Below, piece by piece: positions 8,288 through 21,739 of a stretch of 64,000 nucleotides of DNA. Made by a program: the position numbers and the translations under genes. Origin of the DNA: Pseudohalocynthiibacter aestuariivivens (GTDB lineage: Bacteria > Pseudomonadota > Alphaproteobacteria > Rhodobacterales > Rhodobacteraceae); assembly GCF_018457175.1 (NCBI RefSeq), contig NZ_JAGFNU010000001.1, positions 124,001-188,000 on the forward strand. The letters run 5' to 3'. Under the pieces are notes generated by a model. It was not told the origin of the DNA, ran no database searches, and worked only from the letters and a program-made list of their open reading frames with translations. Positions within the stretch are counted from its first letter, which is position 1, and the number at the start of each line of letters is the position of its first letter.

Positions 8288-8337
8288 AGTTCGTTCTCCT
8301 GTATCTGTCACACCCGACAGAAAGATTTCAGTTCCAT

Positions 8338-8530
8338 GCCTGGCTGGTCTCCTGGCTTGCGGATGATCACGCTTACGTCGCCTTCCCGAGAAAAATCCCA
8401 GTGGCATATGACGCGCGCTACCGCATACAGTCGCGGGGGCGGCTGTGGCTTCGGGTCCCGGATTGGGTCGCCCATACCACATTCCCAATTGATCCCCAGA
8501 CGCTTTGCGTCCGGTGGGGAACCATGCATG
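8338..8530 (-). promoter_or_regulatory. Cobalamin (B12) riboswitch
   Basis: Reading the minus strand, the conserved parts occur in order. GGTTCCCC is at about 8524-8517, GGGAA near 8483, and AGCCGCCCCCGCGACTGT near 8443-8426. GCCACTGG with GGGAAGGC lies near 8405-8379, and the B12 box GCCAGGAGACCAGCC is at 8356-8342. Downstream, a TCTGTC/GACAGA hairpin (8321-8304) sits just before the cbtB ribosome site (8300-8295), so control is probably at translation or by early termination. It should repress cbtB-cbtA-cobW when adenosylcobalamin is high. Confidence 0.95.
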
Positions 8531-8638
8531 TCACCATGTGCGTCTTTTCCGGGCTTTCGGTCAAGTGCGATTCCGACGCGCAATGTGAAAATTGCGGCAC
8601 GTTATTTTGAACCCAATGCGCGAAAAGCCGCGATATCT

Positions 8639-19565: not shown

Positions 19566-20195
19566 ATGGCTGACGAAAAAGACATTATAAGCGACGTATA
19601 CGATACGGCGAAATCCGGCGGGGCGGAGGGGTTGTATGATAAGTGGGCCTCGGATTATGACGCCGATACGGCTGCGAAAGGGTTTCGTTTGCCAGGGATT
19701 GCTGCCGGGTTCGCAGCACGCCATATACCTTTGGGTTCAGGTCCAATTTTGGACGCAGGCGCGGGTACAGGTCAGGTTGGGTCGTGTCTTCAAATCCTGG
19801 GATACGATCAGATCACAGGCATCGACATCTCTGAGGCTATGTTGGCAGAAGCGCTCAGGACGGGGGCTTATGAAGCCGTAAAACGCCAAGTTCTTGGTGA
19901 AGAACTGAGCTTTGCTGACAATATTTTTTCCGGGGTGATCTGTGTTGGATCATTTGGGGTTGGACATGCGCCGCCGAGCTCTCTTTTTGAATTGTTGCGT
20001 CTGACAAAACCGGGATCGCCATTCATATTCAATGTGGTTGAAAATACCTGGGTCGAGCAGGGTTTTCCTGACGTAATGGATGCAATTGATGCTGCGGGCA
20101 CGTGGGAATTTGTTGAAAAATCAGAAGCATTTTGCCCGTACACGAATGGCGAAGAAGATCTGCTGACCAGAGTTTTCGTGTATCGGGCTCTTTAG
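19566..20195 (+). CDS. Class I SAM-dependent methyltransferase
   Basis: This 209-aa protein has the SAM-binding motif I LDAGAGTGQVG, followed by GIDISEAML. Its N-terminal block YDKWASDYDAD resembles the TehB/Williams-Beuren (WBSCR27)-type methyltransferases. The substrate is not known. The start at 19566 has AGGGG five bases upstream; an in-frame TTG at 19506 is less likely. The gene precedes the leader of the corrin operon by 220 bases and is probably independent of it. Confidence 0.85.
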   Translation: MADEKDIISDVYDTAKSGGAEGLYDKWASDYDADTAAKGFRLPGIAAGFAARHIPLGSGPILDAGAGTGQVGSCLQILGYDQITGIDISEAMLAEALRTGAYEAVKRQVLGEELSFADNIFSGVICVGSFGVGHAPPSSLFELLRLTKPGSPFIFNVVENTWVEQGFPDVMDAIDAAGTWEFVEKSEAFCPYTNGEEDLLTRVFVYRAL

Positions 20196-20415
20196 TTCGT
20201 TTAGATGTGCTTGTCGGTTTTATCCGCCTGTGCGCCGCGAATCCGTTTGCGAAGGTCTGATCCCCAACGTATACAAATTTCAGACGAAGCCCGTTGGGCC
20301 AGAGAGGTTGGCTGTGCGTGATTGACCCAAGCTGGGAATCACAAGCAGCATCGTCGGAGACATGCGTGTCTGCCGCTTTGGCCTGTCCGGGAGGATTGAG
20401 AAAAGGACGCATGTA
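20196..20415 (+). promoter_or_regulatory. Structured leader of the cbiX-cob operon (candidate RNA element)
   Basis: This 220-base gap can fold. GTCTGA (20255-20260) pairs with TCAGAC (20280-20285). Its loop holds CCCAAC (20263-20268), which can pair with GTTGGG (20293-20298), giving an H-type pseudoknot. A local GCCC/GGGC hairpin (20289-20299) would compete with that. A second hairpin GTGATT..CCC/GGGAATCAC spans 20318-20342, and AGACA/TGTCT spans 20358-20371. The order GGGAA, AAGC, GGAGAC faintly recalls the 3' half of a cobalamin riboswitch, but the core CCGCAACTG and the full B12 box are missing. The promoter itself is not evident. Confidence 0.4.
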
Positions 20416-20646
20416 ATGAAATCTTTACTGACCACTGTTGCAATTCTTCCCGCAGCGCCTGCATTGGCGCATCCGGGCCACATGGCGGAAGCGCTGGGTC
20501 ATGATCATTGGCTTGGTGCCGCTGCTATCGGGTTGGCGATTGCTTTGGGGCTCTGGGCTAAGCTGAAAGGCAAGGATCAGACAAAAACAAAAGACAATGA
20601 AGAAGCTGAAGACGAGGCCGAGGCCGAAGAATTACAGGAAGCCTGA
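20416..20646 (+). CDS. Small His-rich membrane protein (DUF6732-like)
   Basis: This 76-aa protein has an N-terminal signal-like helix ending PALAHPGH, then a His cluster (HPGHMAEALGHDHW). One transmembrane helix follows (about residues 38-56), then a long acidic tail rich in Glu and Asp. The His cluster would face the periplasm and the acidic tail the cytoplasm. It is the first gene behind the structured leader and ends one base before the cbiX ATG. Cobalt binding or delivery is inferred from the His residues and context; the DUF assignment is from memory of similar Rhodobacteraceae proteins. Confidence 0.75.
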   Translation: MKSLLTTVAILPAAPALAHPGHMAEALGHDHWLGAAAIGLAIALGLWAKLKGKDQTKTKDNEEAEDEAEAEELQEA

Positions 20647-20647
20647 A

Positions 20648-21739
20648 ATGTCCAAAATTGGTGTGATGATTTGCGGCCATGGTTCGCGCAGCCACGCGGC
20701 GGTTGATGAGTTTGCCGTTCTTGCAGAAAAGCTGCCAGCACTGCTGCCAGAGGGCTGGGAAACCGACTATGGCTATCTGGAGTTCGCTAATCCAGTTATT
20801 CGCGACGGGCTTGATCGTCTGCGCGAAAAAGGATGCGACCGTATTCTGGCAGTACCCGGAATGCTGTTTGCCGCGATGCACGCCAAGAATGACATTCCTA
20901 CAGTGTTGAACACCTATGCGAAGAAACACGGCGTTGATCTGACCTACGGGCGCGAACTGGGCGTTGATCCAAAAATGATCGCTGCCGCAGGCGCGCGCAT
21001 TCAGGAAGCGGTGGACTCAGCCAATGATACGCAGGGCGATGTCCCCCTTGAGGAAACTTGTTTGGTTGTGATCGGGCGCGGTGCAAGTGACCCGGATGCA
21101 AACGGAAATGTTTCAAAGATCGCACGCATGTTGCAGGAAGGCATGGGGTTTGGCTGGTGCGAAGTTGGCTATTCCGGCGTTACCTTTCCGCTGGTTGAGC
21201 CTTGCCTGAACCACGTCGTAAAGCTTGGATACAAGCGCGTCGTCGTATTTCCGTATTTTCTTTTTACCGGCATTCTGATCGACCGGATTTATGGGTTCAC
21301 CGACAAGGTCGCAGCCGCGCATCCGGACATTGAGTTCGTCAAGGCAGGCTATCTGAATGACCATCCCGATGTGCTTGCGACCTTTGCGGAACGGGTCACA
21401 GAGCAATTGGGTGACGTTGTGCCGCCTACATGCGGTACCTGCAAATATAGAACGCAGGTATTGGGCTTTGAAGCTGAAGTTGGCGCAGTTCAGGAAAGCC
21501 ATCATCACCATGTTGAAGGGCAAGGTGCGAACGCGCCCGGCTCAAACGTGGCAGATTGTAAATTGTGCGACACTTTTTGTACCGGGGAATGTAGGTTGGA
21601 GATGGAGCATCACCACCATCATCACGATCATGACCATGTGCACGAGGACGGCCACCACCACCATCATGATCATCAGCATGCAGTTTACCCACACGCAAAA
21701 CACCCGCATGGCCCGGAAAGCGCGCGCACCAAAGGATAG
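20648..21739 (+). CDS. cbiX: Sirohydrochlorin cobaltochelatase CbiX, long form with Cys/His tail
   Basis: CbiX inserts cobalt into sirohydrochlorin, the early cobalt-insertion route. The 363-aa protein starts ICGHGSRSHAAVDEF, with the chelatase His11, and carries two CbiX domains. The tail has CGTC, then four Cys in CKLCDTFCTGEC (304-315). A His-rich region follows at about 321-355 (EHHHHHHDHDHVH). CbiX(L) of Bacillus megaterium likewise has a His-rich tail and a Cys motif binding a 4Fe-4S cluster. The start at 20648 has AGGA upstream. A late chelatase subunit, CobN, is encoded nearby, so both cobalt-insertion types coexist. Confidence 0.92.
   Translation: MSKIGVMICGHGSRSHAAVDEFAVLAEKLPALLPEGWETDYGYLEFANPVIRDGLDRLREKGCDRILAVPGMLFAAMHAKNDIPTVLNTYAKKHGVDLTYGRELGVDPKMIAAAGARIQEAVDSANDTQGDVPLEETCLVVIGRGASDPDANGNVSKIARMLQEGMGFGWCEVGYSGVTFPLVEPCLNHVVKLGYKRVVVFPYFLFTGILIDRIYGFTDKVAAAHPDIEFVKAGYLNDHPDVLATFAERVTEQLGDVVPPTCGTCKYRTQVLGFEAEVGAVQESHHHHVEGQGANAPGSNVADCKLCDTFCTGECRLEMEHHHHHHDHDHVHEDGHHHHHDHQHAVYPHAKHPHGPESARTKG

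Follow-up and report, generated by a model that had tools for sequence, protein, structure and literature searches.

In the 64,000-nucleotide (nt) stretch of Pseudohalocynthiibacter aestuariivivens DNA analysed here (contig NZ_JAGFNU010000001.1, positions 124,001–188,000; hereafter the window, whose numbering is used throughout), the leader of the cobalamin (B12) synthesis operon that begins with DUF6732 and cbiX contains, at 20283–20355 of the plus strand, a conserved structured RNA with a three-way-junction fold, as is shown by covariation among homologous leaders. The genomic linkage shows that this element is dedicated to cbiX-type cobalamin synthesis operons. On balance we favour the reading of 20283–20415 as a cis-regulatory RNA in which the aptamer-like junction would be joined to a translational OFF platform, with descent from a cobalamin riboswitch and a corrinoid as the signal. 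A preliminary description had read the leader of the DUF6732-cbiX-cob operon, starting from 20196, as a structured RNA acting in cis, either a highly diverged cobalamin riboswitch or an unrelated metal or B12 sensor; the regulatory RNA survives, with covariation in the homologous leaders, while its limits move to 20283–20355 for the element and to 20415 for the platform.

A three-way-junction RNA conserved in homologous leaders

Of the 395 genomes sampled from the family, 96 were found to have a DUF6732 gene, and a comparison was made of the leaders upstream of the stronger matches. These leaders share the block GACGA.GCCC..GGGCCRGAGAGGTTGG...GRTYGACCCAAACAGGGGAYC...GCRTCGTC, which in the window comprises the following parts.

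20283–20355, plus strand: whole conserved RNA element, an aptamer-like three-way junction of 73 nt (covariance model R1, 78.4 bits)
20283–20287, plus strand: 5' strand of P1, GACGA, pairing with 20351–20355 (98.9% of cells paired; compensatory changes in relatives)
20351–20355, plus strand: 3' strand of P1, UCGUC (covariation with 20283–20287)
20289–20299, plus strand: P2 hairpin GCCC(GUU)GGGC (95% of cells paired; double changes at 2 of 4 pairs)
20300–20310, plus strand: junction J2/3, CAGAGAGGUUG (conserved C-R-GA-NN-GG)
20311–20314, plus strand: 5' strand of P3, GCUG, pairing with 20346–20349 (all 3 modelled pairs with double changes, e.g., GC/UA/CG/AU)
20346–20349, plus strand: 3' strand of P3, CAGC (covariation with 20311–20314)
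20320–20340, plus strand: P4, GAUU-(GA bulge)-CCC-AAGCU-GGG-AAUC (98.1% of cells paired; double changes at 5 of 7 pairs)

P4 is marked by an asymmetric two-base GA bulge, a CCC/GGG tip that covaries locally (two CUC/GAG cases) and a five-base loop. Folded in isolation, the element reaches its predicted energy minimum in the consensus structure. Pairing was scored in three alignments, namely A1, a MAFFT alignment of 64 rows that was not fitted to the structure, A2, a model-fitted alignment of 92 rows, and A3, a divergent subset that was also fitted. In A1, 94.0% of the cells of the four helices are paired and cells with double changes number 105 versus 35.1 in shuffles, a value reached by none of 500 shuffles. 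The corresponding figures for A2 are 96.8% and 212 versus 63.6 (again 0 of 500), with changes on both sides at 13 of the 19 pairs, and a shift of the structure by a single base lowers the paired cells to 45–57%. A3 remains 95.7% paired, with 64 double changes versus 18.3, and four of the five P1 pairs change on both sides. The preliminary description had suggested deriving a covariance model from homologous leaders, which was built and displays abundant compensatory changes, and searching Rfam with the leader, which matched no family: Rfam 15 (4227 families) gave no match for window positions 20150–20480 at E ≤ 10, nor for 14 homologous leaders at E ≤ 5.

Outside the helices, the junction base in A2 column 26 (A or G) varies with the base in column 33; this is possibly a tertiary contact, or else shared ancestry.

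Linkage to cbiX operons

With R1 at E ≤ 1e-3, the element was matched in 113 of the 395 family genomes; 112 of the 117 genomes of the family that have cbiX carry it, to which G017 adds one weaker copy. It is kept across more than 100 genera, and over a quarter of the genera sampled in the family carry it; the P. aestuariivivens genome has one copy only. Where DUF6732 is missing, the element directly precedes cbiX. A class-level sample of 385 genomes yielded credible copies in two further families, before cbiX (L220) and before DUF6732-cbiX (L221), and the phylum-level sample that was also searched added two more alphaproteobacterial families, with copies before hupE-cbiX (L258) and DUF6732-cbiX (L259). 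Since copies precede cbiX operons across families, the RNA follows the cbiX operon.

Several candidate second copies, considered for what they might tell about the ligand, were rejected: L175 and L178 proved to be cobalamin riboswitches of the canonical kind, L179 falls inside a gene's coding sequence, and L222 and L223 had the look of coding DNA. The nine weak R1 matches L180–L188 contain no cobalamin riboswitch; another weak match, G087:C119, overlaps one. On contig G007:C25 (L171) the element (73699–73768, plus strand) and a canonical cobalamin riboswitch (73377–73591, minus strand) point away from each other, with about 110 bases between them.

Probable kinship with cobalamin riboswitches

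The window itself provides a canonical cobalamin riboswitch for comparison.

8325–8541, minus strand: canonical cobalamin riboswitch before cbtB-cbtA-cobW (RF00174, 115 bits)

The P5 arm of this copy bears an extra GA-bulge hairpin, GGGC-GA-CCC-AAUCC-GGG-ACCC, and cbtB starts at about 8288. The element shares with this cbtB/cobW-linked, P5-extended form of RF00174 (8325–8541, L175, L178), which belongs to the same pathway, a closing helix, a GCCC/GGGC-type hairpin, a purine-rich junction and a long arm that contains an internal loop and ends in a tip of 4 bp, a GA bulge and CCC-AANNN-GGG. R1 matches two canonical cobalamin riboswitches in other genomes with 37.1 and 32.2 bits, the whole length of the model lying over their 5' half, and the end-to-end alignment of R1 and R2 with this half of the two riboswitches (32–37 bits) gives the element the architecture of a cobalamin riboswitch 5' half. 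Among the genomes that carry the element, 10 of 14 readable cobalamin riboswitches have the P5 extension with the 4-bp, GA-bulge, CCC-loop-GGG tip (L231, L233, L235, L237, L238, L241, L242, L243, L245 and L248), and R1 scores several carrier-genome cobalamin riboswitches at the GA-bulge arm. The junction of L221, GGGGCUGAAACGAUUUCGGUGGC, has an intermediate look.

The four-way junction and the B12 box are defining features of cobalamin riboswitches (PMC11260477). In contrast, the consensus of the element is a three-way junction of P1, P2 and P3 instead of the four-way junction P3–P6; it is about 75 nt long versus about 190–220 nt, it is devoid of P6, and the median of 56 nt between P1 and the start codon leaves no room for a 3' half. 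The core CCGCAACTG, which is present as CCGCGACTG in the canonical copy at 8325–8541, is absent, and so is the B12 box (GCCAGGAGACCUGCC). The stretch GGAGACATGC at 20356–20365 bears only a partial likeness to the box and was rejected as a degenerate version of it, being unconserved in relatives. Because these defining features were looked for and not found, we do not file the element as a cobalamin riboswitch; it is probably related to these riboswitches and stands outside family RF00174 and clan CL00101, though it may work like a member. The preliminary description was thus correct on the missing core and B12 box, and its proposal of a highly diverged cobalamin riboswitch holds for the 5' half, which resembles the cobalamin riboswitches of the same genomes, and fails for the ligand-binding 3' half, which is missing.

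The simplest reading of these sequence comparisons, and the most likely one, is that the element arose from a cobalamin riboswitch through loss of the 3' half; this reading is supported, not proven, and convergence or module exchange is a possible alternative. Genomes that carry the element have on average 1.45 cobalamin riboswitches versus 2.43 in the others (uncorrected for phylogeny), which is in line with replacement. For the cbiX operons that lack the element (G014, G082, G232 and G237), no cobalamin riboswitch was found in the upstream DNA examined, so that a simple one-for-one exchange is not shown. The missing 3' half and the failure of RF00174 to recognise the element would also be expected of a degenerating cobalamin riboswitch that has lost its function. 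Such decay is very improbable, however, for the strong covariation and a junction that hardly varies among more than 100 genera show purifying selection, and the retention before cbiX is nearly universal.

The predicted 5' end of the transcript

Immediately 5' of the element lies a promoter, predicted from the sequence and the homologous leaders.

20247–20275, plus strand: predicted promoter with −35 TTGCGA (20247–20252), a 17-base spacer and −10 TATACA (20270–20275)

A TATA motif occurs 11–18 bases upstream of the element in 52 of 92 homologous leaders, where 0.016 per leader would be expected, and 51 of these 52 also have TTGN at a spacing of 15–18 bases, the spacer being exactly 17 in 45. 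A strict sigma-70 consensus scan of the window did not report the promoter at 20247–20275. The conserved TTG/TATA arrangement just 5' of the element implies that the transcript probably begins near 20283; the predicted start is at about 20280–20284, at or a few bases from 20283.

This placement bears on the pseudoknot drawn in the preliminary description, in which the loop of a stem GTCTGA/TCAGAC was to pair, through CCCAAC, with GTTGGG downstream. The complementary stretches are there: GTCTGA (20255–20260) and TCAGAC (20280–20285) form a 6-bp inverted repeat in the window sequence, and CCCAACG (20263–20269) is complementary to CGTTGGG (20292–20298) over 7 bp. The 5' portion, however, falls within the −35/−10 spacer of the conserved promoter and is not kept among relatives. 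Because GTCTGA and CCCAAC sit in this spacer, the pseudoknot is probably not transcribed whole, and the region 20196–20415 folds at −72.8 kcal/mol versus −71.4 ± 5.2 for shuffles (z = −0.27), i.e., with no extra stability. We therefore rejected the pseudoknot as a functional RNA, a role for which we find hardly any credence left. The GCCC/GGGC hairpin, regarded earlier as a competitor for the same bases, does exist, not as a mere competitor but as the conserved helix P2 (20289–20292 with 20296–20299).

A predicted translational platform

The region between the element and the first gene contains the Shine-Dalgarno (SD) sequence and two strands with complementary partners.

20403–20418, plus strand: SD sequence AAGGA (20403–20407) and start codon AUG (20416–20418) of DUF6732, from the sequence
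20360–20367, plus strand: SD-masking strand ACAUGCGU, pairing with 20407–20414 (8-bp perfect inverted repeat)
20372–20383, plus strand: GCCGCUUUGGCC, pairing with aptamer strand 20296–20307 in the alternative state (duplex −18.0 kcal/mol)

In DNA letters the SD-masking helix is made of ACATGCGT (20360–20367) and ACGCATGT (20407–20414). The 3' strand of P2 together with J2/3, GGGCCAGAGAGG (20296–20307), is complementary to 20372–20383, and this pairing belongs to the minimum-energy fold of the whole leader. Among the homologous leaders, the strand GGGCCRGAGAGG, common to P2 and the junction, pairs with the downstream region better than with dinucleotide-shuffled versions of it (mean z −1.25, p 9e-13), whereas three control aptamer segments give z of about 0; for the SD region and the stretch before it z is −0.68 (p 4e-6). 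In the window leader, the predicted probability of an open SD falls from 0.65 in the free leader to 0.30 with the aptamer enforced, which fits the pairing of ACAUGCGU (20360–20367) with ACGCAUGU (20407–20414). The earlier claim of two further hairpins ahead of the ribosome site was thus broadly right, these being the P3/P4 arm (20311–20349) and the SD-masking helix. Translational control is indicated by the short distance from P1 to the start codon, and an intrinsic-terminator platform was rejected, no plus-strand terminator having been found in 20180–20440. Two features expected of a riboswitch are thus in evidence: a conserved, structured RNA of aptamer-like form in the 5' leaders of genes with related metabolic roles and, at the level of prediction and statistics only, a platform mutually exclusive with the aptamer.

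We propose that the 73-nt aptamer-like junction would stand at the extreme 5' end of the operon messenger RNA (mRNA), followed by the translational platform. With no signal, the aptamer strand GGGCCAGAGAGG would be paired with GCCGCUUUGGCC downstream and the ribosome site would be open; a signal that stabilises the junction would let the downstream part refold, so that ACAUGCGU could pair with ACGCAUGU and mask the SD region. From the complementarity statistics and the folding, the direction of control following from the model, this is probably a translational OFF switch that lowers translation of the operon. A compact class IIb-like cobalamin riboswitch of Mycobacterium tuberculosis ppe2 has been described as a translational OFF switch (PMC11260477), and the leader studied here resembles it in its compactness and in the predicted overlap of aptamer and platform and masking of the translation start.

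The logic of this platform would be compatible with any binder, and the short, highly conserved junction CRGANNGG at the mRNA 5' end could be recognised by a protein or a small RNA in autoregulation of the operon, with no metabolite aptamer involved. The likeness to cobalamin riboswitches, metabolite sensors of this very pathway, speaks against this explanation, no partner is visible and copies exist without DUF6732; we deem it unlikely.

The ligand and the weight of the evidence

The signal would be a corrinoid, i.e., cobalamin or a late precursor. The pathway and the kinship make a corrinoid our best guess for the ligand, with cobalt as its main rival. In the competing proposal, the aptamer would recognise Co2+ (or Ni2+/Co2+), or else an intermediate of the tetrapyrrole pathway such as sirohydrochlorin or cobalt-sirohydrochlorin, and would tune the supply to the CbiX chelatase, the riboswitch likeness being an inherited scaffold with a changed pocket. 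This proposal would account for a linkage to cbiX operons (112 of 117) and not to B12 use, for the small His-containing DUF6732 or hupE as the first gene and for the loss of the pocket-forming 3' half. The genome, moreover, retains its canonical cobalamin riboswitch before cbtB-cbtA-cobW, next to which a further sensor for that ligand would be partly redundant. On the other hand, no convincing copies were found before cobalt transporter or efflux genes without cbiX in the family and class-level samples, and no Rfam metal riboswitch family, the NiCo (czcD) riboswitch included, matched the window (E ≤ 10) or the 14 relatives (E ≤ 5). We regard a metal or tetrapyrrole ligand as a tentative second choice, clearly less probable than the corrinoid-sensing switch that we favour.

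Several observations weigh against the latter. None of the known parts of the cobalamin pocket (P6, J6/3 and the B12 box) is found in the element and, as all of them are missing, cobalamin binding cannot be assumed. The RF00174 model is blind to the element, both in the window (E ≤ 10) and in the 14 relatives (E ≤ 5), and R1 gave no match on the riboswitch itself at the 30 top-scoring cobalamin riboswitch loci of the family, which lack the shared hairpin; the kinship thus extends only to the P5-extended subtype, and the likeness may be convergent. The pair counts from A2 and A3 lean towards the structure, these alignments having been fitted to the model, although the unfitted A1 agrees. As regards the platform, its signal is statistical. 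The better pairing of own than of swapped partners (−16.5 versus −14.3 kcal/mol, p 1.2e-6) speaks for it, but base composition partly confounds these tests, in which one control reached p 0.036. Taken one by one, only about 30% of the leaders are significant in the alternative pairing and 22% in the masking of the SD, and averaged over the full set the openness of the SD differs little between the two states (0.39 versus 0.35, p 0.011).

A broader proposal, to which we give even chances, is that the element represents a new riboswitch class of about 75 nt, derived from a cobalamin riboswitch minus its whole 3' half. Either it would have built a minimal corrinoid pocket that dispenses with P6, J6/3 and the B12 box, or its ligand would be a new one, Co2+ or an intermediate of tetrapyrrole synthesis; in both cases it would have taken over the cbiX operons across the family and in some other Alphaproteobacteria. 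Other candidate structured RNAs restricted to Rhodobacterales come from a 26-genome survey (PMC8632094). Two of them, HRC-8-4, which forms a terminator-like stem separating cco operons, and uORFC-8-2, an attenuator of cysS, are elements different from ours. The main texts of two large intergenic surveys, PMC8632094 being one of them, contain no mention of cobalamin or cbi genes, and an unnamed earlier record in their supplements is possible.

Genes of the operon

20416–20646, plus strand: DUF6732, short His-containing protein, first gene of the operon (Pfam PF20506, E 7e-28)
20648–21739, plus strand: cbiX, sirohydrochlorin cobaltochelatase family (Pfam PF01903, E 6e-48)

Downstream of cbiX, Pfam matches identify genes of cobalamin synthesis, namely those for a precorrin-8X methylmutase, a tetrapyrrole methylase and a cbiG fusion. 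DUF6732 has a signal-like start and is usually the first gene before cbiX, and its replacement by hupE in L258 suggests a role in cobalt supply. A methyltransferase-like gene (19566–20195, plus strand) lies between a glutathione-transferase-like gene and the leader; it is lacking in the compared relatives and looks like an insertion particular to this genome.

Implications

The element is apparently a strongly covarying RNA that regulates B12 synthesis in cis and has no entry in the RNA family database. If it binds a corrinoid, it would show how little of the classical B12 riboswitch suffices; if its ligand is another one, it would be a natural case in which a riboswitch changed its ligand through the loss of half of its aptamer. 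The presumed parent type is still present in the same genome, where the two are open to comparison.
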